Virus record (IMG/VR): IMGVR_UViG_3300045945_000347
Span: 1-29,191 of that record
DNA length: 29,191 nucleotides
Source: a virus
Strand: one strand, 5' to 3'
Shown here: positions 2,986 through 28,517 of the stretch, piece by piece
How the letters are laid out: every line of letters begins with the position of its first letter
How positions within the stretch are numbered: the first letter of the stretch is position 1
The notes under the pieces: model-generated
The model's database searches: none
What the model was told of the DNA's origin: nothing
Seen by the model: the letters and a program-made list of their open reading frames with translations, nothing else
Translations under genes and position numbers: made by a program

Positions 2986-3813
2986 TCAGTGCACCCTTCG
3001 TTTGAAGACCTGCTCGGCTTCGCGGCGAACTTCGTCGTCGCTGAGCCTCGCGTAATGCTGCGTCGTGGTGACCGACGCGTGACCGAGCACCTGCTGCAGC
3101 GACGGCAAGCTACCGCCGGCCGCGATCCAGTTGCAAGCAAAATTGTGGCGGAGCTGGTGGACGTGGAACCCGGGCACCCCGGAGCGCCGTCGTACCAGCT
3201 TGTTGAAGCTCCCGGCCGACCCCTCCCGGTAGGGCACGAGCGACCCTCGGCGCTGCCGGATCTCGCCGAGGATTTCAGGGGATAGCGGCACCCGCCGCAC
3301 CCGGCGCGACTTCGTATGGGCCACCTCCAGGACCGTGCCCCGCACGTGCTCGGCGCAGGCCCGGCACAGCTCGCCCCAGCGCAGCCCGGTGGCCAGGCCG
3401 AGGCGGATGATGAAGGCCTGCGGCTCGCCGATCTCTAGGACCGCCTCGACCTCCTCGTCGCTCAGCCGGTCAGGGAAGGTCTCTTCGATCCGCGGCATGA
3501 GGCGGGCCGGGAAGGGCGAGCGCGCTAGCACCCCCGCGGCCACCGCCCAGTGCATGAGGCAGCGCACATCGGAGAGCACGTGGCGCACGGTGCGCGGGGC
3601 GAGCGAGCGGGATTCGAGCCACAGCCGGTAGCTGCGCAGGTCATCGGGCCGGATCGTGCCCACCATGCGGGCCCCGAAGAAGGGCTCGAGGTAGTCGCGC
3701 ACGCGCTGGGTGGCGATCATGACGTTTCGCGGGGTGCGCATGGTGGCCACGTACAGATCCAGCCAGCGCGCTGCCAGTGCCCTCAGGGTTACGATTGCGA
3801 TGGGATCGACCAA
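2986..3813 (-). CDS. int: Tyrosine-type site-specific integrase
   Basis: 275 residues. Residues 1-95 are a SAM-like core-binding domain (RWLDLYVATMRTPRNV, YLEPFFGARMVGTIRPDDLRSYRLWL). The catalytic domain carries the full set: Arg145 (GLRWGEL), Lys168 (HTKSRR), His219 and Arg222 (HQLRH), His245 (LGHASV) and the nucleophile Tyr254 (HYARL). No arm-binding N-terminal domain of lambda Int type is obvious, and the protein is shorter than lambda Int (356). The start is the only weak point: TTG 3813 is the most upstream possible start before an in-frame stop and lacks a Shine-Dalgarno sequence. The gene sits between attP and the repressor, as in many temperate phages. Confidence 0.95.
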   Translation of the reverse strand: MVDPIAIVTLRALAARWLDLYVATMRTPRNVMIATQRVRDYLEPFFGARMVGTIRPDDLRSYRLWLESRSLAPRTVRHVLSDVRCLMHWAVAAGVLARSPFPARLMPRIEETFPDRLSDEEVEAVLEIGEPQAFIIRLGLATGLRWGELCRACAEHVRGTVLEVAHTKSRRVRRVPLSPEILGEIRQRRGSLVPYREGSAGSFNKLVRRRSGVPGFHVHQLRHNFACNWIAAGGSLPSLQQVLGHASVTTTQHYARLSDDEVRREAEQVFKRRVH

Positions 3814-7217: not shown

Positions 7218-10200
7218 TCACCCGATCTGCACTCCCACGACGTCGGCCAGGTACGAGGCTCCGCCGCCCTGCTGGTGGACCTCGAGCACCAGCCAGCGCT
7301 TGCCATCGCCCGCCCAGGAGCCGTTGCTGCCTTCGACGCCAAACCTCACCAGGTCGTCCGCGCTCTCATGAAACTCGATGACGCGCCCCACCTCGAGATC
7401 GGGCGCCCATTCGGTCTTGAACCTGACCGGCGGCCGATCTACAGCCGCGAGGTCGATCAGGCGGTCGCGCACCTCGCGGGCGGTCGGGCTGTCGTAGATC
7501 GTGCGGCCCTCAACGCCCACCTCGCGCTTGCCGCCATGCTGGTCGCGGGCGGTGGTGAGCAGATTCTCCCGGTCGCGCTTCGGGCTGTGGGCGGAGAACG
7601 AGCCCGTGAGGTTCGCCACGTAGTTCATGTCGGCCAGGGTGTCGAAGCCGAGGAGGCTGGCGCAGTTCTTGAGGCCGGCGTTCATGCCGTTCGGGCCGGT
7701 CTCCCACTCGAGGTTGAAGGCGTGTGATTCGACCATCGAAACGCCGATCGCGAATAACTCCTCCTCGCGGGGCGACACGGCCGCGAGGGTGCTCACCGTG
7801 CCGCTATTGTCGTTCGCCAACCCGAAGAGGATCCCGGCAGTCCACAGCTCGGCGTCGGTTCCGCCGTTCGGGTTGTAATTGAAGTTCCCTCCCGATCGGC
7901 TGATCGTGAAGAGCCGCGTCGTCCGGCTGTAGGTCACGGTGAACCCCGTGGACGCGGCGTTCATCTTGGTCTGGAGGTGGGCGGCCAGCTCGTCCATGGT
8001 GTAGGTGCCCGGGTCGAGTGTGACCGTGAACTCTTCCGGTGCGAAGACGTCCGTGGAGAACGTGAACTTGTCGTTCGCCCCGGTCACGACCAGGCCGCCC
8101 CAGCACACGACCCAGCGGGGCGTGGAGTCTCCGGCCTCGAGCGCGGCCTGGACCTCGGTGCGCAGGGTGGCCGGCGTGTAGGTGCCGGCGGTGAGGGTCG
8201 CCGTGAAATCCCCGAGGCCGTTGCGGTTGACGTCCAGCTTGTTGTTCTGGCCGGACCCGCTGCTGATTACCTCCATCTGCTGGTCGCGCAGGTTGCGGTA
8301 GAGGTGGCCGCTCGAGCTGCGACCGGGAGCCGCGAAGGTCTCGTGGGAGGGCGAGCCGCTCCGGTGGTCGAACCCGTAGGGCACCTTCACCGCGGTCGCG
8401 ATCATGGTCTCGGGGGTGCGGCCCAGCTCGGGCCCGGGCTCGGCGATCTGGTCCTTGCCGAAGACGAGGTCGTAGTCGACCGGCGCGCCGTCCTCCCAGA
8501 CCAGGCAATGCCACTTGTCGTTGAACGGGCTGATCCGGAACCAGCAGAGCGAGTCCTGCGACAGCATCTCGAGGAAGCGGATGAGGTCCACGTCGGCATC
8601 GGCCAGCGAGACCGCGTGGACCATGTCGGTGCCCCGCCACGTCTTGAGCTTGGCGCGGGCGTCCTTGAACGACCCGAAGGTCGAGGTGCCGCGCTCGATC
8701 TTCGCGAGGTCCTCGAGCCCGTACGTCACCAGTGCGTGCGTCGCCATGTCCGGCGCCCGTTGGATGAGAGCGGATGCGACGTCCGTGATCGTGCCCGAGT
8801 CGTCATCGTAGTGGCCCTCGAGGTTGGCGTAGACCGGCGAGTCCACCGCGGCGAACTGTGCGATGACGGGCAGGGTGGTGCCGGGGCCGCGGATTCGCCC
8901 GGGCGGGTCACCACGTCCACGATCCCTGGGGTGGCGCAGGATTGGCCCCGGGATGAACCGGGGCGGGGTCTGCCCGAGCAGTGCTCGGTTCGGACGCAAC
9001 CGGACCGAGAGCCCGAGCTTGTACAGCTCCACCTGCACGTTGCTGGCCGGCGCTGACGTGAAGAGCACCTCGAGGACGCAGTCCCCGAAAGCCCAGGGTT
9101 GCCCCGGCATACCTGACCCGCCGCCCCAGCCCGCCGTGATGGCCGAGGATTCGACGTAGGTGAGACCACCGGTCGCGAGCGCCATGGTGGTGTCGGTCTG
9201 CGAGGCGACCACGGTGTTGCGCAGGCGGAGGACCAGGTTGGTGGTGGCCGGTCCCGTCGGCGTGTAGTAGAGCGCGATCGCCCGAACGCTCACCAGGTCC
9301 CCCGGGGTGCCCAGCGAGGGCAGACGGGCGGTCAGCTTCCGCTTCGAGGCGTTGTAGTCGAGCTTGGCAAAGCTGTTCTCGTTCCACGGATCCAGCACGT
9401 AGCGCGGGTTGTCCGCGTTCTCTGAGGCAGCGAGTTCGATCTGCACCGGCACGATCGCCAGGTGCGCGATGTTGAAGGGATCGGTGCCGCCGCTCACGCT
9501 GCCGATATCGAACCCGCAGCCGTCCGTCGCGTTGTTGAAGATGTCGCCGCCGGCGACGTCGATGAAGGCGAGGTTGCCGTCCACGTCCATCCAGACGGCG
9601 CAGCCCTTGGTGGTGTCCGAGAAGGTCTTGCACGCGTGCGGGGCGAAGAGCACGCGGGTCTTACTGGTGGGCCCGGCACCGACATCTACGAGCACGGCGC
9701 GGGTCAGGCGCGACGCGCCCCGGATGCGTTCCAGGCGGTGTTCGACGGTTCCGTAGGCCGCGGGAAACGGGTGGCGCGCCGGCGCCGCCGGCATGGAGCC
9801 GTAGAGGATCGGGATGATCTGGCCGAGGCCCTGCTCGGGGGCGCGCGGGTTGGCGTCCCGCGTGACGCGCTTGCCGACCATCTCTTTGTTGAAGTCGCGT
9901 CGCTGCAGCAGGTCCACCTGCGCGCCCTTGGCGGTGAGCTGGTAGTCGAGGACCCGGCCCTTGAATCGTTGCAGGACATCCGGGGAATTCCGCTCCCAGA
10001 AGTAGATCGTGACCGTCGCGCCCTTCCACTTGTAGTCGGTGAAGACCTCGGCAATGGTGCGATTCGTCCCGGACTGGTAGGAGAGCTGCCGGTTGACGAT
10101 CGAGAAGTTTGCCGAGCTGAGCACCACGGCGTTCGTGAGGAACGACGCCTTGTCGTGGATGTCGACCTCGGAGATGCCCGATTCCCAGACCTGGCCGTCG

Positions 10201-10337
10201 GGGGTCGCCACTTCCGCGGTCGCGAGATAGAGCGTGCGCGCGCTGGGCGACGTCAGCTCGACCTTGACCAGCGTGACGGGCCGCCTCGCGCTCGAACGCC
10301 ACGCCGCCAAGAATGCCGCGGTGGCCGGGCTGGCCAT
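7218..10337 (-). CDS. Tail tip / baseplate hub protein
   Basis: 1039 residues from ATG 10337, which overlaps the previous stop by one base (TAATG). The N-terminal 190 residues (VTLVKVELTSPSARTLYLATAEV, WESGISEVDIHDKASF, VTIYFWERNSPDVLQRFKGR, DFNKEMVGKRV, GQIIPILYG) resemble siphophage hub proteins. The middle contains a tail-hub-like segment (WFRISPFNDKWHCLVWEDG, FGKDQIAEPGPELGRTPETM). The last third carries two copies of an L-A-LQ-type module (DFTATLTAGTYTPATLRTEVQAALEAG and FTVTLDPGTYTMDELAAHLQTKMNAA). It should close the distal tail and contact the host surface. A short stretch near 8885-8935 appears to be read in the wrong frame (see the separate entry). Confidence 0.75.
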   Translation of the reverse strand: MASPATAAFLAAWRSSARRPVTLVKVELTSPSARTLYLATAEVATPDGQVWESGISEVDIHDKASFLTNAVVLSSANFSIVNRQLSYQSGTNRTIAEVFTDYKWKGATVTIYFWERNSPDVLQRFKGRVLDYQLTAKGAQVDLLQRRDFNKEMVGKRVTRDANPRAPEQGLGQIIPILYGSMPAAPARHPFPAAYGTVEHRLERIRGASRLTRAVLVDVGAGPTSKTRVLFAPHACKTFSDTTKGCAVWMDVDGNLAFIDVAGGDIFNNATDGCGFDIGSVSGGTDPFNIAHLAIVPVQIELAASENADNPRYVLDPWNENSFAKLDYNASKRKLTARLPSLGTPGDLVSVRAIALYYTPTGPATTNLVLRLRNTVVASQTDTTMALATGGLTYVESSAITAGWGGGSGMPGQPWAFGDCVLEVLFTSAPASNVQVELYKLGLSVRLRPNRALLGQTPPRFIPGPILRHPRDRGRGDPPGRIRGPGTTLPVIAQFAAVDSPVYANLEGHYDDDSGTITDVASALIQRAPDMATHALVTYGLEDLAKIERGTSTFGSFKDARAKLKTWRGTDMVHAVSLADADVDLIRFLEMLSQDSLCWFRISPFNDKWHCLVWEDGAPVDYDLVFGKDQIAEPGPELGRTPETMIATAVKVPYGFDHRSGSPSHETFAAPGRSSSGHLYRNLRDQQMEVISSGSGQNNKLDVNRNGLGDFTATLTAGTYTPATLRTEVQAALEAGDSTPRWVVCWGGLVVTGANDKFTFSTDVFAPEEFTVTLDPGTYTMDELAAHLQTKMNAASTGFTVTYSRTTRLFTISRSGGNFNYNPNGGTDAELWTAGILFGLANDNSGTVSTLAAVSPREEELFAIGVSMVESHAFNLEWETGPNGMNAGLKNCASLLGFDTLADMNYVANLTGSFSAHSPKRDRENLLTTARDQHGGKREVGVEGRTIYDSPTAREVRDRLIDLAAVDRPPVRFKTEWAPDLEVGRVIEFHESADDLVRFGVEGSNGSWAGDGKRWLVLEVHQQGGGASYLADVVGVQIG
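8885..8935 (-). other. Local frame excursion inside hub gene (possible paired indels)
   Basis: In the annotated frame this stretch reads as Arg/Gly/Pro-rich (RDRGRGDPPGRIRGPG) and its codons lose the usual G/C third base. The +1 frame over the same bases reads GIVDVVTRPGESAAPAP with almost all codons ending in G or C. Both borders contain GGGG runs (8883-8886 and 8928-8931 on the plus strand). This is the pattern of two compensating single-base indels, from sequencing, assembly or mutation. Confidence 0.6.
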
Positions 10338-11149
10338 TAGGCGAGTTGCTCCAGGTCGATCTCGAGGTCGTAGGTGGTCTCCACGTCCTCCTCCCACACG
10401 CGCGTCACACGGATCTCGGCACGCGGGACCACCTGCTCGCTGAAGGCGTCGTTCTTGTCGATCCAGGCGAACGCCTTCTTGCGAGAACGCAGCTGCTCGA
10501 GCTTGGAACGAATGGTGCCCCTCACAGCGCGAAAACGGATGCTGGTCAGGGTCCGATCGTCGCCCGGGTAGCTGAGGACGGGATTGCGACCCCCGGTCCG
10601 CGATTCGATCACCGGCGAATGCGGCAGCTCGGTCACCCCGGGCGAGCCCAGGCTGCCGAGGTCGAGGTCCACCGTGCCGAGGAGGAAGCGGCTGAGCGTG
10701 AATGCGTCGAACACCCCGTCGAGATCGAACCTCCAGTAGCGGGCGGAGACGGTGCCCCCCGCGAAGATCACGCCGGAATCGCGGGCCGAGAACGGCGAGA
10801 GGGTCGCGATGTTCGTCCACGAGCCCCCGCCGCCGGGCGGGTACCCAGTGGCCGCCGTCGCGTACTTCACCACGCAGGAGGAGATCCCAAGGCCGGTCGA
10901 ACCCACGGGCCGGTGCCCGAGCAGGGCCGCGACGCCGATGGTGCGGTTGGCGCCCAGGTCGAAGTCCACAGGGAGCGGGTCACCGCTCGACTGTCGCCAC
11001 AGGATCAGGCGGTCGAGCTTCATGGCGTTTTCCATGACGTAGGGCGAGACTTCGTCGCGAGCCGGTGCCCCACCGCCGGTGCCGTTCTTGAGCACCGTGG
11101 CCGTACCCTCGACCCAGTTGGTCAGTACCGCACGATACGAGGTGGCCAC
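10337..11149 (-). CDS. Tail protein, Dit-like/minor tail with galactose-binding-like fold
   Basis: 270 residues from GTG 11149, one base after the tape measure stop. Residues about 35-150 (MENAMKLDRLILWRQSSG, RTIGVAALLGHRPVGS, FSARDSGVIFAGGTVSARYWRFDL) have the pattern of a discoidin/F5-8C-like beta sandwich, the ARYWRFDLDG motif being typical. The C-terminal 90 residues (TSIRFRAVRGTIRSKLEQLRSRKKAFAWIDKND) resemble a distal-tail-type domain. Position between tape measure and hub matches the Dit or gpM/L slot. It probably joins the tube to the hub. Homology is by pattern and order, not by a family match. Confidence 0.6.
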   Translation of the reverse strand: MATSYRAVLTNWVEGTATVLKNGTGGGAPARDEVSPYVMENAMKLDRLILWRQSSGDPLPVDFDLGANRTIGVAALLGHRPVGSTGLGISSCVVKYATAATGYPPGGGGSWTNIATLSPFSARDSGVIFAGGTVSARYWRFDLDGVFDAFTLSRFLLGTVDLDLGSLGSPGVTELPHSPVIESRTGGRNPVLSYPGDDRTLTSIRFRAVRGTIRSKLEQLRSRKKAFAWIDKNDAFSEQVVPRAEIRVTRVWEEDVETTYDLEIDLEQLA

Positions 11150-11150
11150 G

Positions 11151-12842
11151 TTAGTACTCGGAGACCAGGTTGACGCGGTCCTGCGCGCGGCGCAGCTCGC
11201 CGGACGGGCTCGACAGCTCCATGACGAGGCTGCGCACCCCCAGCGTGCTGATGTTGAAGGTGTTGATCGTCGTTCCTTCCCCGCGCGGCCGCCCGGCTCG
11301 GGCGCCGGCACCACCAACTTCGGCCGCGATGCTGATCCCGGCCCCGGCGCCAGGAAGGATCAGGCTCAGGAAGAACCCGAACACCTTGGCCGCCGCGAGC
11401 CTGGCGAGCTCAGCCAGCATCTCGTCCACGAGCGTGTGGGTGACGTTGTTGATGAGGTTCGCGGAATATTTCCAGCGCGCGGTCAGCTGACTGAAGGCCC
11501 TACCGGCGCTGATTTGAAGCCCGTTCCACAGCGCTTCCATGCTGGCATTGAGAACGCCGACGCGCGATGTGACCTCATCGGCGATCAGCAGCCAGTTGTT
11601 CAGGACGCTCTGCGCCTCCACCATCGACTTCGTGGCGGCGTCCAACTTCTCCGGCACCTGCGCCATGGTGGCTACGATGCCCTCCATCTGGGCGTTCGTC
11701 TCCGCCGACGTGACCGCGAGAACGTCCTGGCCCTCGCTCACCTGAGCGGTCGCCTCGACCACCTGGCCTTCGATCACGAGCAGGTCGGAGAAGGACTTCT
11801 CCAGTTCGCGCACGGCCTTCGGAGCGCCCTTCATCAACCGATCGACCTCGGCGTTGATCTTCGCGATCTGCTCGGCGGTGAGGTCAAGCCCGAGCATGCG
11901 CTCGATCGGGTCCGTGATTCGAGGTGCAGTGACGGTGATTTCGAACCGCGAGTCGGCGATGTTTGCGAGGACCTCGTCGCCCTTCTTCTGGAAGGTGGTC
12001 ATGTGGGTGGGATCGACGACGTTCGTCGGCGCGGCTATCCCGCGCTCGGCCTTGACCTTTGACAGGTCCTCGAGCGGGTCCACCAACTGCGTGCGCAAGA
12101 TCTCGCCGGTAGCCCGTGCCGCCTCGAGGATCGCGTTGAGCGTGCCCACCACGGCCGCTGAGATGGGGACCGCCAACGCCTGGAAGGACGTGGCGATCCC
12201 CTTCCAGTTCCGTCCGAGCTTGTCGAGTTGCTCGTCCAGCTCGCGGGCGGCCGGGGCCATCTCTTCGGTGATGATCGCGCCCGTGGCGCGCAGTTCCTCG
12301 CCCGTTTCACGGCTCTTCGTCGCGAGGTCCTCGATGTTGCCCAGCAGGTCGGCCGACCCCCTTCCGAGCAGCCGGTAGGCGATCTCGGTTCTCTTCGCCA
12401 CGTCCGCGGTGGAAGCCAGGACCTGCACGATCTGGGTGAACGCCTGTTCCGTGTCGCGCGTGGTGACGTGCAGCTGCTTCAACAGCGGATCGTTGCTCGC
12501 GATCGTGCGATTGAGGAAGGTGAGCGCCGAGGTGAGCGCTTCGCTGGAACCGCCGGCGTCTTCGAGGACGCGTTGCCAGATCTGAAGCGTCTCGATGCCG
12601 ACTCCGCTCCGCGCGGACAGCCGGTCGAGCTGCTCGACGGCGTCGGCCATCTGCTTGGCGCTGGCGACCACCGCCCCACCGATCGCCGTGATTCCCGCCA
12701 CGCCCGCCCCGATCAGCCCGGCCTTGGCGGCAAGGTTGCCGACCGCTCCCGTGAGGCCGGTGATCCCCTGCCGCGTCCTGGCGATCGTCGCCGTGGCCTC
12801 GTCCCGGGCCCGGAGGATGAACTCGACGGTGTCGGTGGCCAT
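11151..12842 (-). CDS. Tape measure protein
   Basis: 563 residues, mainly helical. It starts with MATDTVEFILRARDEATATIARTR, a typical tape measure N-terminus, then a hydrophobic helix pair at about 35-65 (LAAKAGLIGAGVAGITAIGGAVVASAKQM) and SARSGVGIETLQIWQ, which recurs in tape measures. A second hydrophobic segment lies near residue 485 (VFGFFLSLILPGAGAGISIAA). At about 0.15 nm per residue it predicts a tail of about 85 nm, short for a siphovirus. It follows the two tail chaperone frames, the canonical order. ATG 12842 is one base after the preceding stop. Confidence 0.92.
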   Translation of the reverse strand: MATDTVEFILRARDEATATIARTRQGITGLTGAVGNLAAKAGLIGAGVAGITAIGGAVVASAKQMADAVEQLDRLSARSGVGIETLQIWQRVLEDAGGSSEALTSALTFLNRTIASNDPLLKQLHVTTRDTEQAFTQIVQVLASTADVAKRTEIAYRLLGRGSADLLGNIEDLATKSRETGEELRATGAIITEEMAPAARELDEQLDKLGRNWKGIATSFQALAVPISAAVVGTLNAILEAARATGEILRTQLVDPLEDLSKVKAERGIAAPTNVVDPTHMTTFQKKGDEVLANIADSRFEITVTAPRITDPIERMLGLDLTAEQIAKINAEVDRLMKGAPKAVRELEKSFSDLLVIEGQVVEATAQVSEGQDVLAVTSAETNAQMEGIVATMAQVPEKLDAATKSMVEAQSVLNNWLLIADEVTSRVGVLNASMEALWNGLQISAGRAFSQLTARWKYSANLINNVTHTLVDEMLAELARLAAAKVFGFFLSLILPGAGAGISIAAEVGGAGARAGRPRGEGTTINTFNISTLGVRSLVMELSSPSGELRRAQDRVNLVSEY

Positions 12843-12845
12843 GGA

Positions 12846-13070
12846 TCAGGCGTTCTCGTGAATGCCGGCCAGTAGGGCCCCCAGGGCATCGCCGGGAGGC
12901 TGTGAGCGCAGGGCCTGCAGCCAGCGCCGGTACTCGTCGTGGGCACGCATCACGGTCACGTTGTACGCGAGGCGCGGGTCATGCATGGTTTCCCACGGCG
13001 TCCGGCCGCTCGCTCGCGCCAGGCGCCACAGCTCCCACGCGACCCTCCCCGCCGTCTCCGTCTCCAGCAT
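12846..13070 (-). CDS. Tail assembly chaperone, frameshift extension (gpT-like part)
   Basis: 74 codons from ATG 13070 to the stop just before the tape measure. Sequence reads MLETETAGRVAWELWRLARA, then TPWETMHDPRLAYNVTVMRAHDEYRRWL, resembling gpT-like chaperone tails. Third-position GC is nearly complete in this frame, so it is truly coded. There is no Shine-Dalgarno sequence before ATG 13070. The frame is +1 relative to the upstream chaperone, and the switch falls exactly at TTT-C (13071-13074). The likely product is a fusion of residues 1-165 of the upstream frame with these 74, about 239 residues. Independent initiation at 13070 is the alternative. Confidence 0.72.
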   Translation of the reverse strand: MLETETAGRVAWELWRLARASGRTPWETMHDPRLAYNVTVMRAHDEYRRWLQALRSQPPGDALGALLAGIHENA

Positions 13071-13566
13071 GAAACCCGGCGCCGGCGCCGGCGTCGGCGT
13101 CGTCCTCCTTGCCGAAGCCGCTCAGCGCGATAACGGTGGTGGTGATCAGGGCCTTGTCGTCGATGCGGAGGGCGCGGCCGGGGAGTGAGAGTGCGTGGCG
13201 CGGGGTGGCGGGATCGAACCAGAACGCGGGGCGGACCTCACCACCCTGGCCGTCGTCGAGCACGGTGCCCAGCTCGATGAGCCGGGGCGCGATCTCCTTC
13301 AGAAACCGGGCGCCGTCGCGGACCTCGGTCTCCGTGGGTGCGGACGCGGGCTGGCCCGCGGCCGCGGCCCTGCGCCGGGCGACGCGCGCGCGGGCGCGCT
13401 CCAGCGTGTCCCCGGGCAGCCGCTGCAGGATCTCGGCGGCCTCCTCCACCTTTTCGCAGCGCACGCGCACGGGCTTGCCGTCGCGGGTTTTCAGGTGCGT
13501 CAGCTCCACGATGCGGGTCATCTCGGGCACCTGCACGTCCGCCGCGCTAGTTGCCTTGCCTTCCAT
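12979..13566 (-). CDS. Tail assembly chaperone (gpG-like)
   Basis: 195 residues as an unshifted product. ATG 13566 follows GGAGGTACACC, a good ribosome binding site. Features: MTRIVELTHLKTRDGKPVRVRCEKVEEAAEILQRL, a basic Ala-rich helix, ARFLKEIAPRLIELGTVLDDG, and ALRIDDKALITTTVIALSGFGKEDD before a DADAGAGAG linker. After TTT (13072-13074) the frame gives low-complexity sequence (HAGDGDGGEGRVGAVAPG) with poor third-position GC, showing that the conserved information moves to the other frame. Position between tail tube and tape measure is that of the G/GT chaperones, which guide tail assembly around the tape measure. Confidence 0.78.
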   Translation of the reverse strand: MEGKATSAADVQVPEMTRIVELTHLKTRDGKPVRVRCEKVEEAAEILQRLPGDTLERARARVARRRAAAAGQPASAPTETEVRDGARFLKEIAPRLIELGTVLDDGQGGEVRPAFWFDPATPRHALSLPGRALRIDDKALITTTVIALSGFGKEDDADAGAGAGFHAGDGDGGEGRVGAVAPGASERPDAVGNHA

Positions 13567-13670: not shown

Positions 13671-13916
13671 CTACTCGATCGCGATGACCTCCCTCGTGAC
13701 GCGCCCGCCGGCGGCCGTCTCGAGTTCGAGCGACATGCCCTCGTGGAGCTGGAGCGAGCCTTTGCAGGTGGGGCAGCGCTTCGCGCGCACCCGCTCGTCC
13801 AGCTCCTCGAGGGGCCCAGTGTCCTTCCACGAGACGAGGGTCCCGCAGACCGAGCACTCCCCGGTGCCGGCTACCGCCAGCACCCGCAGCTTGATGACCA
13901 GCTCGGCGCGCGCCAT
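13671..13916 (-). CDS. Small zinc-ribbon protein within the tail operon
   Basis: 81 residues with two Cys pairs: Cys21/Cys24 (CSVC) and Cys48/Cys51 (CPTC), about 24 residues apart, a classic zinc ribbon. Beta-type sequence flanks both knuckles. The ATG overlaps the tail tube stop as TAATG. It probably acts in assembly or as a late regulator; no named family is recognised. The 104 bp between it and the chaperone hold that gene's ribosome binding site and a GGCCGGT/ACCGGCC inverted repeat. Confidence 0.7.
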   Translation of the reverse strand: MARAELVIKLRVLAVAGTGECSVCGTLVSWKDTGPLEELDERVRAKRCPTCKGSLQLHEGMSLELETAAGGRVTREVIAIE

Positions 13917-14932
13917 TACGTGAGCGCCGACTCCGTGTTGCGGAATCGGCAGTAGAGCGCGCAGAGGTCGGTGGGGTCATAGAACGCGCGCCACGTGGCG
14001 GTCGAGATGATGATTCCGTAGCCCTCGACCGGCGCCGACCACCCGACCAGCTTCGCGCTGCCCGAGCGGACCTCGAACTCGCGCTTCGAGCTGACCCCGA
14101 TCGTGGTCGGGTCCTGGAACACGAGGCGCGGCGAGCCCGTGGTGAAGGCCTTGGCGGCTTCGAACTGGGTCTTGGTCTTGAACTCCTGGGTGAGCTTCCA
14201 GGTGACGTCCAGGAAGTCGCTGCGGAGCGGCTCGTCGATGAGCTGGCTGCCGAGGTAGGCGCGCTCCTCCCCGGTGTGCGGCGCGGCGAGGACGATCTCG
14301 GCCGAACGGATGCGCACGTTCGCGGCAGTGTCGCCCGTACCGTCGTCCACCACGCCGCCGGCGTTCTTGGTGTCGTGATAGCGCACCGGCAGCACCGAGG
14401 GGAACACGAGCGATCCGGTGGGGGTCAGGTCGGACTCGTAATCCCTGCCGATGGTCGGCCACTCGAACTTCACCATGGCGTCGTCGCCCTGCCCGGCCGT
14501 GACGCGGATCGTGAGCCCCGCGTGCTTCAGGCCGAGCGCGCGGAAGCACTTGCCGACCGGGATGTCGCCGGCGACCACCTCGGGCGAGTAGCTGTTCAGC
14601 TTGGCGCTGCCGGCACCGTCCGAGAGGAACACGTGGTCGCGCACACCGGTCTCGACCAGGCTGTTCGAGTAGGTACCCAGCGCCGCGCGGAAGAACTCGA
14701 GGTGGCCCTCGTAGTTGGCGCGGGTGATGAACGAGCCCTGGTAGAAGATGAGCCCCTGGTGGATCGCGCGGCGCGACTGTCCGCCGTAGAGGCTCGAGTC
14801 CGGGATCTCGCCGATCTGCGGCTCGAAGTCCCACTTCTCGATTTCGATCTTCTTCGTGGGCGCGACAGGGGTGCCGTAGGTGGTCTCCTTCGGCCCAGTC
14901 TGGATATAGCTCAGGTGCCCGAGGCCCGACAT
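13916..14932 (-). CDS. Major tail tube protein
   Basis: 338 residues, ATG 14932 after GGAGGG. The opening (GHLSYIQTGPKETTYGTPVAPTKKIEIEKWDFEPQIGEIPDSSL) is the hallmark of siphophage tail tube proteins, a long loop followed by an E/D-rich strand. Beta-rich throughout (GLIFYQGSFITRANYEGHLEF, DVTWKLTQEF, GYGIIISTATWRAFYD). Position between tail terminator and chaperones is canonical. It polymerises as hexamer rings around the tape measure. Confidence 0.87.
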   Translation of the reverse strand: MSGLGHLSYIQTGPKETTYGTPVAPTKKIEIEKWDFEPQIGEIPDSSLYGGQSRRAIHQGLIFYQGSFITRANYEGHLEFFRAALGTYSNSLVETGVRDHVFLSDGAGSAKLNSYSPEVVAGDIPVGKCFRALGLKHAGLTIRVTAGQGDDAMVKFEWPTIGRDYESDLTPTGSLVFPSVLPVRYHDTKNAGGVVDDGTGDTAANVRIRSAEIVLAAPHTGEERAYLGSQLIDEPLRSDFLDVTWKLTQEFKTKTQFEAAKAFTTGSPRLVFQDPTTIGVSSKREFEVRSGSAKLVGWSAPVEGYGIIISTATWRAFYDPTDLCALYCRFRNTESALT

Positions 14933-16922: not shown

Positions 16923-18842
16923 CTATGCGGTCGCGCCGGTCGCCTTCGAGAACGACTCCCCGTGGCGGATCAGGATGTCCGCCATCTGGAAGCTGGTGAC
17001 CTCGATCAGGCCGCTCTGCTTCGCCGTGTACGGATCGACGATCAGCTCCATCGCGAACCAGAAGCCGATCAGGACGTCCCGCCAGTTGCCGAAGATCGCG
17101 CCGATCTCCGAGCCGCCGGTGAACTCGCTGCCCGACATGACCTTCGAGATCTGGTTCGTCGCGATCGCGCGGTAGCCGTCGACCACGCCTTCGGTGATCG
17201 GGCCCTCCCACACCGGCGAGTACGTGTTGGTCGCCTTGTGGACCTGCTTGAGGTTGGCCGACATCGTCGGGTTCATGAGCCACCCGAGCGTGCCGAGCAT
17301 CGCGTTGGCCGTGGCGACCTGGCCTTCCATCGCGACGACCTTGGCGTAGGACATCGCACCACCGACCGCGGTCACGCTGACGCCGGCCGCCTTGTAGATG
17401 CCGGTCGGCTCGCCCGCGGCGCCCAGGCCGTGGGGCACCGCGAGGTCCACCGCGATCGAGTGCACCGCGCTCAGGTCGTCACGCACCATCTCCTCGGTGT
17501 CGAAGGCCCCCTCGACCAGGAGCTGGCGCGAGAACGACGTCGCGCCCATCAGGGTCTTGGGCGCGAACTGAGCGAGCGCGAAGGACATGTCGCCCTTGGT
17601 GATCGGAGACGGGGGATTCTCGCCGACCCACTTGGCGGGAATCGCACCGCTCTGCTTCGGGAACGTGACCGGAGCGGTGAGCCCGGTGATCACCCGCGCC
17701 CCGAGGCGGATCGCTGCCGTCTGGTTGCGCAGCAGCTCGATGACGTCGCCGGCCTGCTCGAAGGTGAGTTCGGCGCCCTTGCCGCCGGTCTTCGTGTCGA
17801 GCGCGCGCTTCTTGAGGCCCAGGCTCGCAGGGATGAGCAGTCCGCCCTTGCGCGCCATTCCGGCGGAGTGGCGCTCGAGCTCGCGGTGCATCTCCCACTC
17901 GAGCCCCTTGCCGTCGTGCCCCTCGCGCAGCTCGGAGGCCGCGAGGATGGCGCGCGCGTACGAGTAGCCGCGCCGGTCCTTCTCCGGCACGTCGATGACC
18001 TCGGAGGCCGGCTGGGTCCGCTTCGGGATCCGGTCGGCCTTGAGGTTCAGGATCTCGCGCCCGACCTCGTTCGGGGTGAGACCGCGATCGAGCCAGCCGT
18101 CCACGCGGTCGAGGAAGCCGTGGTCCGACGCCATCTGGTGAATCTCCCTGGCCTCGGCACGGTGATCGCGCTCCGCCGTGGCCGTGGTGGTCCCGCCGCC
18201 GCCGCCGGCGCCCGCGTTCAGGTGACGCTTCATGTTCCGGTCCTCCTTCGGCGGGTCGTCCGCCTCGATCTCGATCGGCGGCCCACCGCCACCGTTCGCG
18301 TCCCGGCCGACACCCACGGTGGGGTCGGCGGGCACACCCACGCTCGAAAGCTCCATGGGCTCCCACTGGGTCATGCGCCAGAGGTCGCCCTTCTCCTCGT
18401 CCTCCTCGACCAGCTTCGCGCGCTTCGGGATGTAGCCGACCGAGATGTTCCCGCGGATCCCATCCACGAAGTCGCGCTCGACGTCCTGGCCGCGCTGCGT
18501 GCGCGAGAACACGATCACGGCGCGCAGCACCCGATCGTCGTCGATGCGCGCGGACTCGATGACACCGACCGGCGCGCCGCGGTGCTCCTCGAGCACGGCC
18601 GCGCGGCCCGACGTGAAGCGCTCGAGCTGCACCGATTCGGCCGAGTGGTCGAGGACCTCGCGCCACTTGCCGAACCAGCCGTAGCGTTCGACCTCGTACT
18701 CGGAGCTGACCGCGACCTCGTAGCGGGCGCGCTCGTCGCCCTCGGCCGCGCGGGTCGCGACGGGCTCGAGCTTGCGGAACTCGCGGATCGGCAGGAACCG
18801 CATTCCGGCGGCGGCGGGGAATCGCTTCACGTCGTCCTCCAT
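16923..18842 (-). CDS. Prohead protease-major capsid fusion (S78 protease + HK97 fold)
   Basis: 639 residues from ATG 18842 (ATG 18905 is a possible longer start; neither has a Shine-Dalgarno sequence). Residues 1-180 are an HK97-type prohead protease: His87 (VLEEHRGAPVG), Ser134 (RGNISVGYIPK) and Glu164 (WEPMELSSVGVPADP) fit the His/Ser/acid centre. After a Gly-rich linker (183-225), residues 226-290 are a helical, delta-domain-like scaffold segment. The HK97-fold capsid follows (YSYARAILAAS, TFEQAGDVIELLRNQTAAIRLG, NPPSPITKGDMSFALAQFAPK, AGEPTGIYKAAGV, GYRAIATNQIS). The protease should cleave the scaffold during maturation. A strong internal ribosome binding site lies before Met204, so free capsid precursor is probably also made. 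Confidence 0.92.
   Translation of the reverse strand: MEDDVKRFPAAAGMRFLPIREFRKLEPVATRAAEGDERARYEVAVSSEYEVERYGWFGKWREVLDHSAESVQLERFTSGRAAVLEEHRGAPVGVIESARIDDDRVLRAVIVFSRTQRGQDVERDFVDGIRGNISVGYIPKRAKLVEEDEEKGDLWRMTQWEPMELSSVGVPADPTVGVGRDANGGGGPPIEIEADDPPKEDRNMKRHLNAGAGGGGGTTTATAERDHRAEAREIHQMASDHGFLDRVDGWLDRGLTPNEVGREILNLKADRIPKRTQPASEVIDVPEKDRRGYSYARAILAASELREGHDGKGLEWEMHRELERHSAGMARKGGLLIPASLGLKKRALDTKTGGKGAELTFEQAGDVIELLRNQTAAIRLGARVITGLTAPVTFPKQSGAIPAKWVGENPPSPITKGDMSFALAQFAPKTLMGATSFSRQLLVEGAFDTEEMVRDDLSAVHSIAVDLAVPHGLGAAGEPTGIYKAAGVSVTAVGGAMSYAKVVAMEGQVATANAMLGTLGWLMNPTMSANLKQVHKATNTYSPVWEGPITEGVVDGYRAIATNQISKVMSGSEFTGGSEIGAIFGNWRDVLIGFWFAMELIVDPYTAKQSGLIEVTSFQMADILIRHGESFSKATGATA
18231..18248 (-). 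promoter_or_regulatory. Internal ribosome binding site and start for capsid alone
   Basis: Within the protease-capsid gene, AAGGAGGA (18241-18248 on the minus strand) lies 8 nt before ATG 18233, in frame (Met204, MKRHLNAGAGGGG). It is among the best Shine-Dalgarno sequences in the window, while the annotated gene start has none. Initiation here gives a 436-residue scaffold-capsid product without protease, analogous in logic to lambda C/Nu3. Confidence 0.68.
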
Positions 18843-18902
18843 GGCGTCGCGGGGCTGGCGCGTCGTCCGTGATCCAAAGTCAAGGACGCAGGAGGCGAAG
18901 TC

Positions 18903-18923
18903 CATTACACTATTAGTGCAATG
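18903..18923. promoter_or_regulatory. 21-bp near-perfect palindrome, operator candidate
   Basis: CATTaCACTA - T - TAGTGcAATG is symmetric at 9 of 10 paired positions about T18913. It is AT-rich within a region of very high GC and lies between the divergent protease-capsid (minus) and pre-portal (plus) genes, where it could control both. No convincing -35/-10 pair is visible on either strand; a TAATAG -10 within the palindrome on the minus strand is possible. Confidence 0.6.
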
Positions 18924-18957
18924 GCATCGGGGTCGGCGGGCCCGTAGCGTGGCCTCC

Positions 18958-19488
18958 ATGCAGGACCTGACGGCCCTTCCCGCGAGCTTCGCAGCCGGCA
19001 CCACGGTGAAGTACACGCGGAGCCACGCCGACTACCCCGCGAACGACGGCTGGGTGCTCACCGTCGTGCTCTCGGGCCGGGACCGCCTCGAGGTCACGGG
19101 CACGCCGAGCGGCGCCGCGTTCGCGGTGACGCTGCCGGCGACCGAGACCGCGAAGCTCCGGCCGGGCGTCTACCGCTGGACCGAGCGCGCCTCGAAGGCC
19201 GGCGAGGCCTTCACCGCCTGCGCCGGCGAGATCACGGTCACGCCCGACGTCGTCGGGGCCTCGGTGGGCGATCTCCTCAGCCAGGACGAGAAGGAACTCG
19301 ATCTCGTGAACACCGCGATCACGAAGATCCTCACGCACACGCTGCAGGCCTTCTCGATCGCGGGGCGCCAGGTGGAGTATGCGGACCTCGAGAAGCTGCA
19401 GGCGCGGCGCGCGGTGCTCGAGGCGAGGATCTCGCGGCGCAAGAACGGCGGCCGCATCGGGCGCGTCCACCGCGTGGCGTTCCGGTGA
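18958..19488 (+). CDS. Pre-portal head-tail connector protein (occupies the gpW position)
   Basis: 176 residues, ATG 18958. An N-terminal Ig-like beta domain (DLTALPASFAAGTTVKYTRSHADYPANDGWVLTVVLSG, VYRWTERASKAGEAFTACAGEITVTPD) is followed by a helical part (KELDLVNTAITKILTH) and a gpW-like end (GRQVEYADLEKLQARRAVLEARISRRKNGG). Such two-part proteins sit just before the portal in many lambda-like phages, where gpW-type proteins complete the head-tail connection. The upstream extension of the frame lacks similarity, so this ATG is preferred despite a weak ribosome binding site. Its stop overlaps the portal start as GTGA. Confidence 0.72.
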   Translation: MQDLTALPASFAAGTTVKYTRSHADYPANDGWVLTVVLSGRDRLEVTGTPSGAAFAVTLPATETAKLRPGVYRWTERASKAGEAFTACAGEITVTPDVVGASVGDLLSQDEKELDLVNTAITKILTHTLQAFSIAGRQVEYADLEKLQARRAVLEARISRRKNGGRIGRVHRVAFR

Positions 19489-27480: not shown

Positions 27481-28149
27481 TCATCCGCCGGGCTTCATCG
27501 CGGCGCGGGCGTGCGCGACGAGCGCGGCGCCGGCGCTGGCGCCGGGTGTGCGCGCGCGCACCCAGGCCACGAACTCGATCCAACGGTCACGCTGCTCCTC
27601 CGTGTCGAACTCGAGCATCTGGAGGATGCGCCCGGCGCGTGCCCGCGGCGCGGCCGCCGGCTTCGGAGCGCCGGCGAGGAGCTTGCGCGCCGCGTCCTCG
27701 AGCGCCTCGAGCTCCTGGACGCTGAAGCCGGCGGCGCCGAGGTCGAAGGCCTCGATCTCGAGCGCGCGCAGCTCCCGGGCGAGGAGCGCGGGGTCCCACT
27801 CCGCCTCGAGCGCGAGCTTGTTGTCGGCGAGGCGGTACGCCCGGCGCTGGGTCTCGCTCAGGTGCGTGACGCGGAGCACGGGCACGCGCTCCATGCCGAG
27901 CTTGCGCGCCGCGGCGAGGCGCCCGCGGCCGGCGATCACGCCGCCCTTGTCGTCGGCGAGCACGGGAACCGTGAATCCGAACTCGAGGATGCTCGCCGCG
28001 ATTCGGTTGATCTGCTGCGGGGTGTGGATCCGCGGGTCGTTCGGGTTGGGCTTCAGCCGCTCGATGCGCCAGTACTCGATCGTGCCGGGCAGGCGCACGC
28101 CGCCCGTGGTGGAGCGCTCCGCCGCGGCCGCGCGCGCGCCGTTCTTCAC
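27481..28149 (-). CDS. ParB-like N-terminal domain protein upstream of terminase
   Basis: 222 residues; GTG 28149 overlaps the upstream TGA as GTGA. Residues about 15-110 form a ParB-like nuclease-type domain: IEYWRIERLKPNPNDPRIHTPQQINRIAASILEFGFTVPVLADDKGGVIAGRGRLAAARKLGMERVPVLRVTHLSETQRRAYRLADNKLAL. GRGRLAAAR corresponds to the GERRxxAA box. Such proteins near phage terminases often carry a DNA methyltransferase domain; here none is present, the C-terminus being a helical EFDTEEQRDRWIEFVAWVRAR segment. Possible roles: DNA nicking, packaging or regulation. Distinct from the ParB at the left end. Confidence 0.83.
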   Translation of the reverse strand: MKNGARAAAAERSTTGGVRLPGTIEYWRIERLKPNPNDPRIHTPQQINRIAASILEFGFTVPVLADDKGGVIAGRGRLAAARKLGMERVPVLRVTHLSETQRRAYRLADNKLALEAEWDPALLARELRALEIEAFDLGAAGFSVQELEALEDAARKLLAGAPKPAAAPRARAGRILQMLEFDTEEQRDRWIEFVAWVRARTPGASAGAALVAHARAAMKPGG

Positions 28150-28517
28150 GCCAGGCCCCCGCTCTCGATCGACGGGTCGGGCGCAAGCACCCGCTGCCAC
28201 CATTCGCAGAAGGCGCAGGCCCGCGCCCGGTCCCCGAGCTGGTGACCCGGCTCGTAGCGCGCGTGAGCGTTCTTGATCACCTGGCGCAGTGCCGCGTTTT
28301 CCCGAGCCTTCTCGATCCGGTCCACCTCCGCCATGGTGCGCGCGACCGCGTCTTCCTTCCGTTCGTCCTCGCGATAGCTCTCCGCGAACGCAGCGACTGC
28401 ATCAACGGTCCAGCCCGGACCGTCCTCGTGGAAAGGGCGGTGCGCTTGGAAGTACTCCGAGGCGGCGTGGATTGCCTTGGGTGACGCGTCGCAAGGCGGT
28501 TTCAGTGGATCCTCCAA
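28146..28517 (-). CDS. Unrecognised protein with HxxxxxxxxCxxC end
   Basis: About 123 residues if TTG 28517 is used (GGGGAG about 9 nt before); ATG 28550 is an alternative. Helical, charged middle (AVAAFAESYREDERKEDAVARTMAEVDRIEKARENAALRQVIKNAHARY) and a C-terminal GHQLGDRARACAFCEWWQRVL in which His and two Cys could bind metal. Overlaps the lipoprotein stop and the ParB-like start. Function unknown. Confidence 0.55.
   Translation of the reverse strand: MEDPLKPPCDASPKAIHAASEYFQAHRPFHEDGPGWTVDAVAAFAESYREDERKEDAVARTMAEVDRIEKARENAALRQVIKNAHARYEPGHQLGDRARACAFCEWWQRVLAPDPSIESGGLA

Follow-up and report, generated by a model that had tools for sequence, protein, structure and literature searches.

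Frameshifts in tail assembly chaperone genes are among the most widely conserved viral recoding events, and most of those described are −1 shifts. A +1 cassette is found in the bacterial gene for release factor 2 (RF2), with a Shine-Dalgarno (SD) sequence, a spacer of 3 nucleotides (nt) and CUU_UGA. The lambda gpG/gpGT pair belongs to the −1 tail chaperone frameshifts (Xu 2004 and later studies, as cited in PMC5009743). Shifts to +1 have been described for the tail tube genes of Listeria PSA and SPP1, at CCC_UGA and CCC_UAA (PMC5009743, PMC6316719), HSTV-2 is listed as very likely +1 (PMC5009743), and a TTT-CGC +1 site has been predicted for the tail chaperones of the HF1-group haloviruses (Haloferacalesvirus; PMC7230728). 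A +1 shift at UCC_UUU_CGU that gives rise to influenza A PA-X was shown by mass spectrometry (PMC3498833). The PRFect training set, made up mostly of SEA-PHAGES tail chaperones, holds 350 forward vs 2368 backward motif sites near annotated shifts; +1 cases are therefore a minority, yet not unknown. The open-access literature searched describes no bacterial-phage chaperone family with a UUU_Y +1 site. Here we analyse virus record IMGVR_UViG_3300045945_000347 (29,191 bases; “the window”), in which two overlapping open reading frames (ORFs) upstream of the tape measure gene, named G and T after their lambda counterparts, are very probably joined by a programmed +1 frameshift at TTT_C to yield a G-T fusion beside a short G-like protein. 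The case is built on comparison and codon–anticodon logic, which together support it strongly.

All genes treated here lie on the minus strand of the window, and the elements of the site are as follows (aa, amino acids).

13072–13566, minus strand: G part, the 0-frame coding sequence of 165 aa from ATG 13566 to the slip codon; homologous in 23 contigs.
12979–13566, minus strand: complete 0-frame ORF of 195 aa, from ATG 13566 to TGA 12981–12979; presumed short major product.
13071–13074, minus strand: slip site TTT_C, with the P-site TTT at 13074–13072 and the skipped C at 13071; conserved in relatives.
12846–13070, minus strand: T part, 74 aa coded in the +1 frame past the slip, opening with ATG and ending at TGA 12848–12846; homologous in other contigs.
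12846–13121, minus strand: whole open stretch of the +1 frame, with no start codon ahead of the slip site.
13104–13108, minus strand: GGAGG, SD-like, 29 nt upstream of TTT; putative role.

The sequence at the frame switch reads GCC GGG TTT C ATG CTG GAG (GGG 13077–13075, ATG 13070–13068). Thirty codons of frame 0 remain after the slip codon before the TGA is reached, and the two frames share 143 nt. Before the site, third-position GC of frame 0 is 0.75–1.00; beyond it, frame 0 has 0.35–0.75 and the +1 frame 0.75–0.95. A codon-usage change-point model places the switch within one codon of TTT in seven of the first ten homologues, the window counted, with the one-codon offset arising because TTC is commoner than TTT; by itself, the model could not place the site in L008, L015 and L024. 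The original prediction, made from the window alone, had suggested that a +1 slip at TTT-C links a tail chaperone gene with the +1 ORF. Its coordinates are right when read on the minus strand, the switch in third-position GC that it reported at GGG TTT is present, and its estimate of about 239 residues for the fusion agrees with the 165 + 74 = 239 aa found here.

Amino-acid patterns of G, of T and of the tape measure protein served to find relatives, and no search used TTT. The resulting set comprises 22 related contigs and the window, 23 in all, which form 20 clusters at 60% G identity with a median pairwise identity of ~30%. In every one of the 23, the T frame is +1 to G, which rules out a canonical −1 chaperone frameshift (X_XXY_YYZ), and no continuous single-frame homologue occurs among the relatives found. 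The closest relative, L002 (G 88% identical), has the same arrangement as the window, and in L003 (42%) the site reads GCT GGC TTT T CTA with the second ORF again at +1. Protein searches of a phage collection with G and with the L007 fusion gave no match, and two scans of genome contigs found no relative. Suppression of synonymous change near the site was also considered: an identical stretch of 75 nt spans the site in the window and L002, but that alignment has runs of 71 in other places as well, and the stretch was not counted as evidence.

The strongest comparative signal lies in the slip codon itself, which is TTT in 22 of the 23 contigs (21 TTT_C and one TTT_T), with CTT_C in L052 as the exception. 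The fourth base is C in 22 contigs and T in one, and all 22 TTT sites are TTT_Y. Other phenylalanine codons in the same G reading frames are TTC 81 times and TTT five times, and the control phenylalanine of a conserved PAF motif in the same genes is TTC in 20 cases and TTT in one (Fisher p for TTT at the slip codon: 1.7e-18 vs all other Phe, 2.2e-11 vs the PAF Phe, 1.1e-9 per cluster). Because these GC-rich genomes would mostly write a merely conserved phenylalanine as TTC, the excess of TTT is not plain residue conservation. In an unsupervised DNA alignment of the first ten contigs, the TTT columns are invariant amid variable flanks. Moreover, the E-site codon varies widely (GCC, GGG, GGC, ACC, TCC, CGA, AAG, GAG and others), so it is UUU itself that is kept. 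Coding in both frames would force TTT; yet in the window, L002, L007 and L015 no start codon precedes the site in the open +1 frame. The phenylalanine there, which therefore cannot be translated in that frame, is still TTT, and dual coding is not its cause in these contigs. Judged from sequence comparison, UUU_Y is conserved beyond protein need, as expected of the UUU_Y +1 class. The homologues thus bear out what the original prediction proposed to check, in that TTT-C and both frames are conserved and TTT-C far beyond what the protein would require, and the slip that it proposed is very probably real. An arrangement that recurs in all 23 contigs, 22 of them carrying TTT, is not due to chance.

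Under the proposed mechanism, most ribosomes would stay in frame 0 and make the G-like protein of 195 aa, with the shifted product presumably the minority. On the remainder, the P-site tRNA-Phe (anticodon GAA) would slip one base forward from UUU to UUC, where it pairs better; the same forward-pairing argument has been made for influenza PA-X. Translation would then resume at AUG in the +1 frame and produce the 239 aa fusion, with EDDADAGAGAGFMLETETAGR as the expected junction peptide and GAGFMLET as the junction region. Both forms would be expected to work alongside the tape measure protein as the tail is built, like lambda gpG and gpGT.

T might instead be a separate protein, started independently at ATG 13070 by translational coupling or reinitiation, with TTT incidental. 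An ATG does follow TTT_C directly in 11 of the 23 contigs, and in L007 an AAGGAG lies 9 nt ahead of it. The next +1 codon in the other 12 contigs is CTG (five), GCG (three), CTA, GAA, CTC or CGG (one each), and seven (L003, L008, L016, L049, L052, L056 and L057) lack an ATG, GTG or TTG in the +1 frame up to 18 nt away from the site. The window itself has no SD sequence at a normal distance before ATG 13070, and an independent start leaves the choice of TTT over TTC unexplained. Such a start, which would give the N-terminus MLETETAGR and was the alternative that the original prediction had set against its own proposal, is therefore not the shared mechanism, and we consider it very unlikely as the source of T; initiation at the ATG in addition to the frameshift is possible in the 11 contigs that have one.

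A −2 shift, as in phage Mu, ends in the same frame as +1, and reading-frame data alone cannot tell the two apart. The sites themselves argue against it: in a −2 slip the tRNA-Phe would have to move onto GGT in the window, or onto GCT, CCT, ACT and the like in relatives, where no acceptable pairing is apparent, whereas the forward slip gains a perfect TTC. Nor is the E-site codon conserved. We regard a −2 slip, which would make the junction one residue longer, as extremely unlikely. The frame break could also reflect an error of sequencing or assembly, or a decayed gene, and a short GCCGGC-type repeat directly upstream of the site in the window might be seen as favouring this. The +1 relation recurs in the 22 other contigs, most of them with different flanks; with no single-frame homologue among them, the comparison excludes a sequencing error, and we give a negligible probability to an artefact or decay. 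Known transcriptional slippage sites have longer runs than the three T residues present here (four in L003), and transcriptional slippage was rejected on that ground.

Several observations weigh against a programmed +1 frameshift at TTT_C. Folding of ten homologues found no RNA structure at the site (mean z of 0.20 for 60 nt downstream, 0.28 for 90 nt downstream and −0.10 for 57 nt upstream). The A-site codon of the window, CAT, is only moderately rare. A second in-frame TTT_C occurs in the window (CGG TTT CTG, near 13305), where no shift is expected; TTT_C alone is thus insufficient and something further matters, or slipping there is merely unproductive. Neither G nor T matches any Pfam or PHROG family.

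The SD-like GGAGG occurs at most 40 nt upstream of the site in 16 of the 23 contigs, mostly 14–20 nt away. GGAGG was present in all of the first ten contigs, but in only one of the first five examined later and in six of the 13 later contigs overall, and was rejected as a fixed, required element. The same 13 contigs, examined after the idea had formed, nevertheless have it more often than expected (6/13 vs 6.8%, p 1e-4), and its presence given the amino acids is moderately unexpected (product 5e-4 over nine lineages). On these counts, GGAGG is enriched upstream of the slip codon but not required. Stimulatory SD sequences have been described at 3 nt for +1 and 9–14 nt for −1 shifts (PMC5009743); with a spacing of mostly 14–20 nt, no described stimulator fits. 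A tailed-phage lineage may have fixed a +1 shift at UUU_Y instead of the usual −1, with GGAGG 14–20 nt upstream aiding the slip in many members, although we hold this proposal to be doubtful. If true, GGAGG at this distance would be a new stimulator geometry, mostly outside both described ranges.

A GCCGGC-type repeat (window 13075–13098, minus strand) immediately precedes the slip codon in the window and in L002, and it appears to have lengthened the distance from GGAGG to TTT to 29 nt, compared with 14–20 nt in most relatives. L052 (2250–2330) has GGAGG TTC CTT C at the frame switch, with a spacing of exactly 3 nt between GGAGG and CTT; this is one instance, spotted after the fact. A-site codons across the set are mostly CAT and CCT, with CGC, CGA, TCT and CCG also present; most are minor codons, partly dictated by the +1 codon, and CAT and CCT occur at 6.6 and 7.7 per 1000 in pooled codon counts.

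The position and architecture of G and T are those of the gpG/gpGT tail assembly chaperones, between the tail tube and tape measure genes. Chaperones of that type are marked by a large excess of the short form, with both forms binding the tape measure protein and missing from virions. From upstream to downstream, the order in the window is tail tube gene, 81 aa ORF, G-like ORF, T-like +1 ORF and tape measure gene, with these neighbours:

13916–14932, minus strand: tail tube protein gene, upstream (PF18906, E 1.3e-10; phrog_290, E 3.9e-17).
13671–13916, minus strand: small ORF of 81 aa between the tail tube and chaperone genes.
11151–12842, minus strand: tape measure protein gene, 563 aa, next downstream (PHROG tape measure families, best named E 1.8e-12).

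A GGAGG lies 7 nt ahead of the G start. In the window, the tape measure ATG follows the T stop codon by 3 nt; across the first ten contigs the tape measure start is at most 15 nt from that stop. An AlphaFold model of the G part has a mean predicted local distance difference test score (pLDDT) of 75, and the T part is predicted to be helical. PDB fold searches with the G and T models gave no match. In a library of viral models, the best match of the G model is an unnamed protein (E 0.003), and the matches with named functions are mostly tail assembly or tape-measure chaperones (Madruga, Hawkeye, Sansa, Salgado and others), with weak E values from 0.03 upwards. By inference, G and T likely encode a tail assembly chaperone.

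Related tail modules do not all shift in the same direction. Beginning with L059, the more distant tape-measure relatives (~29% identity; L059–L072) have different chaperone genes, located ~500 nt ahead of the tape measure match, and in the two that were checked, L059 and L060, the second chaperone ORF is at −1. Related tape-measure genes thus stand beside +1 or −1 chaperone pairs.

Elsewhere in the window, the 81 aa ORF has two CxxC pairs and resembles a small zinc ribbon; it has no match in PHROG or Pfam, and a similar protein is found at the same place in L002. An ORF of 1200 aa in the tail region downstream of the tape measure gene (7218–10820, minus strand) has no PHROG or Pfam family match. 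An ORF of 697 aa (16923–19016, minus strand) has matches to head maturation protease families and also to major head protein families, and protease and capsid look fused in a single gene. Matches to integrase and ParB-like partition proteins (2989–3813 and 27481–28203, both minus strand) suggest a temperate phage.

Since the +1 direction and UUU_Y are kept over ~20 divergent lineages, the family provides a natural set of sites with differing E-site and A-site codons, which makes the determinants of +1 efficiency directly testable with reporters. It also bears on annotation, as both halves of the gene are easily missed when no Pfam or PHROG model finds them.

The original prediction called a +1 chaperone shift notable. 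As to direction this holds, +1 being the minority; the event does have a precedent in the TTT-CGC site predicted for the HF1 group (PMC7230728). There, as in the window, two overlapping chaperone ORFs in a +1 relation lie between tail tube and tape measure, with TTT_C at the junction. The HF1-group viruses are haloarchaeal myoviruses, however, and no sequence relation was detected here. The HF2 site, read here as AAG TTT CGC AGA TAG, has its frame-0 stop two codons past CGC, whereas in the window family the stop usually comes ~30 codons on and the A-site codon is mostly CAT or CCT. Lambda gpG/gpGT shares the gene position, a short and a long form from one start codon, and a presumed part, alongside the tape measure protein, in assembling the tail, but lambda-type shifts are −1, and that of the window family would be +1 on a single P-site codon. 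Influenza PA-X has the same UUU_C slip codon, at which tRNA-Phe pairs better in the +1 frame; it comes from an unrelated gene of a eukaryotic virus, its A-site codon is CGU, and its E-site UCC contributes to the shift, whereas the E-site codon varies in the window family. The RF2 cassette is likewise a +1 P-site slip, and L052 alone reproduces its GGAGG, 3 nt and CTT, but without the stop; the window has UUU, a GGAGG 29 nt away and a sense codon in the A site. Listeria PSA and SPP1 also have +1 shifts in phage tail genes, but theirs occur in tail tube genes at a proline codon before a stop, and the SPP1 chaperone shift is a putative −1. Against these systems, the window family is a well-conserved +1 UUU_Y variant of the classic recoding event.
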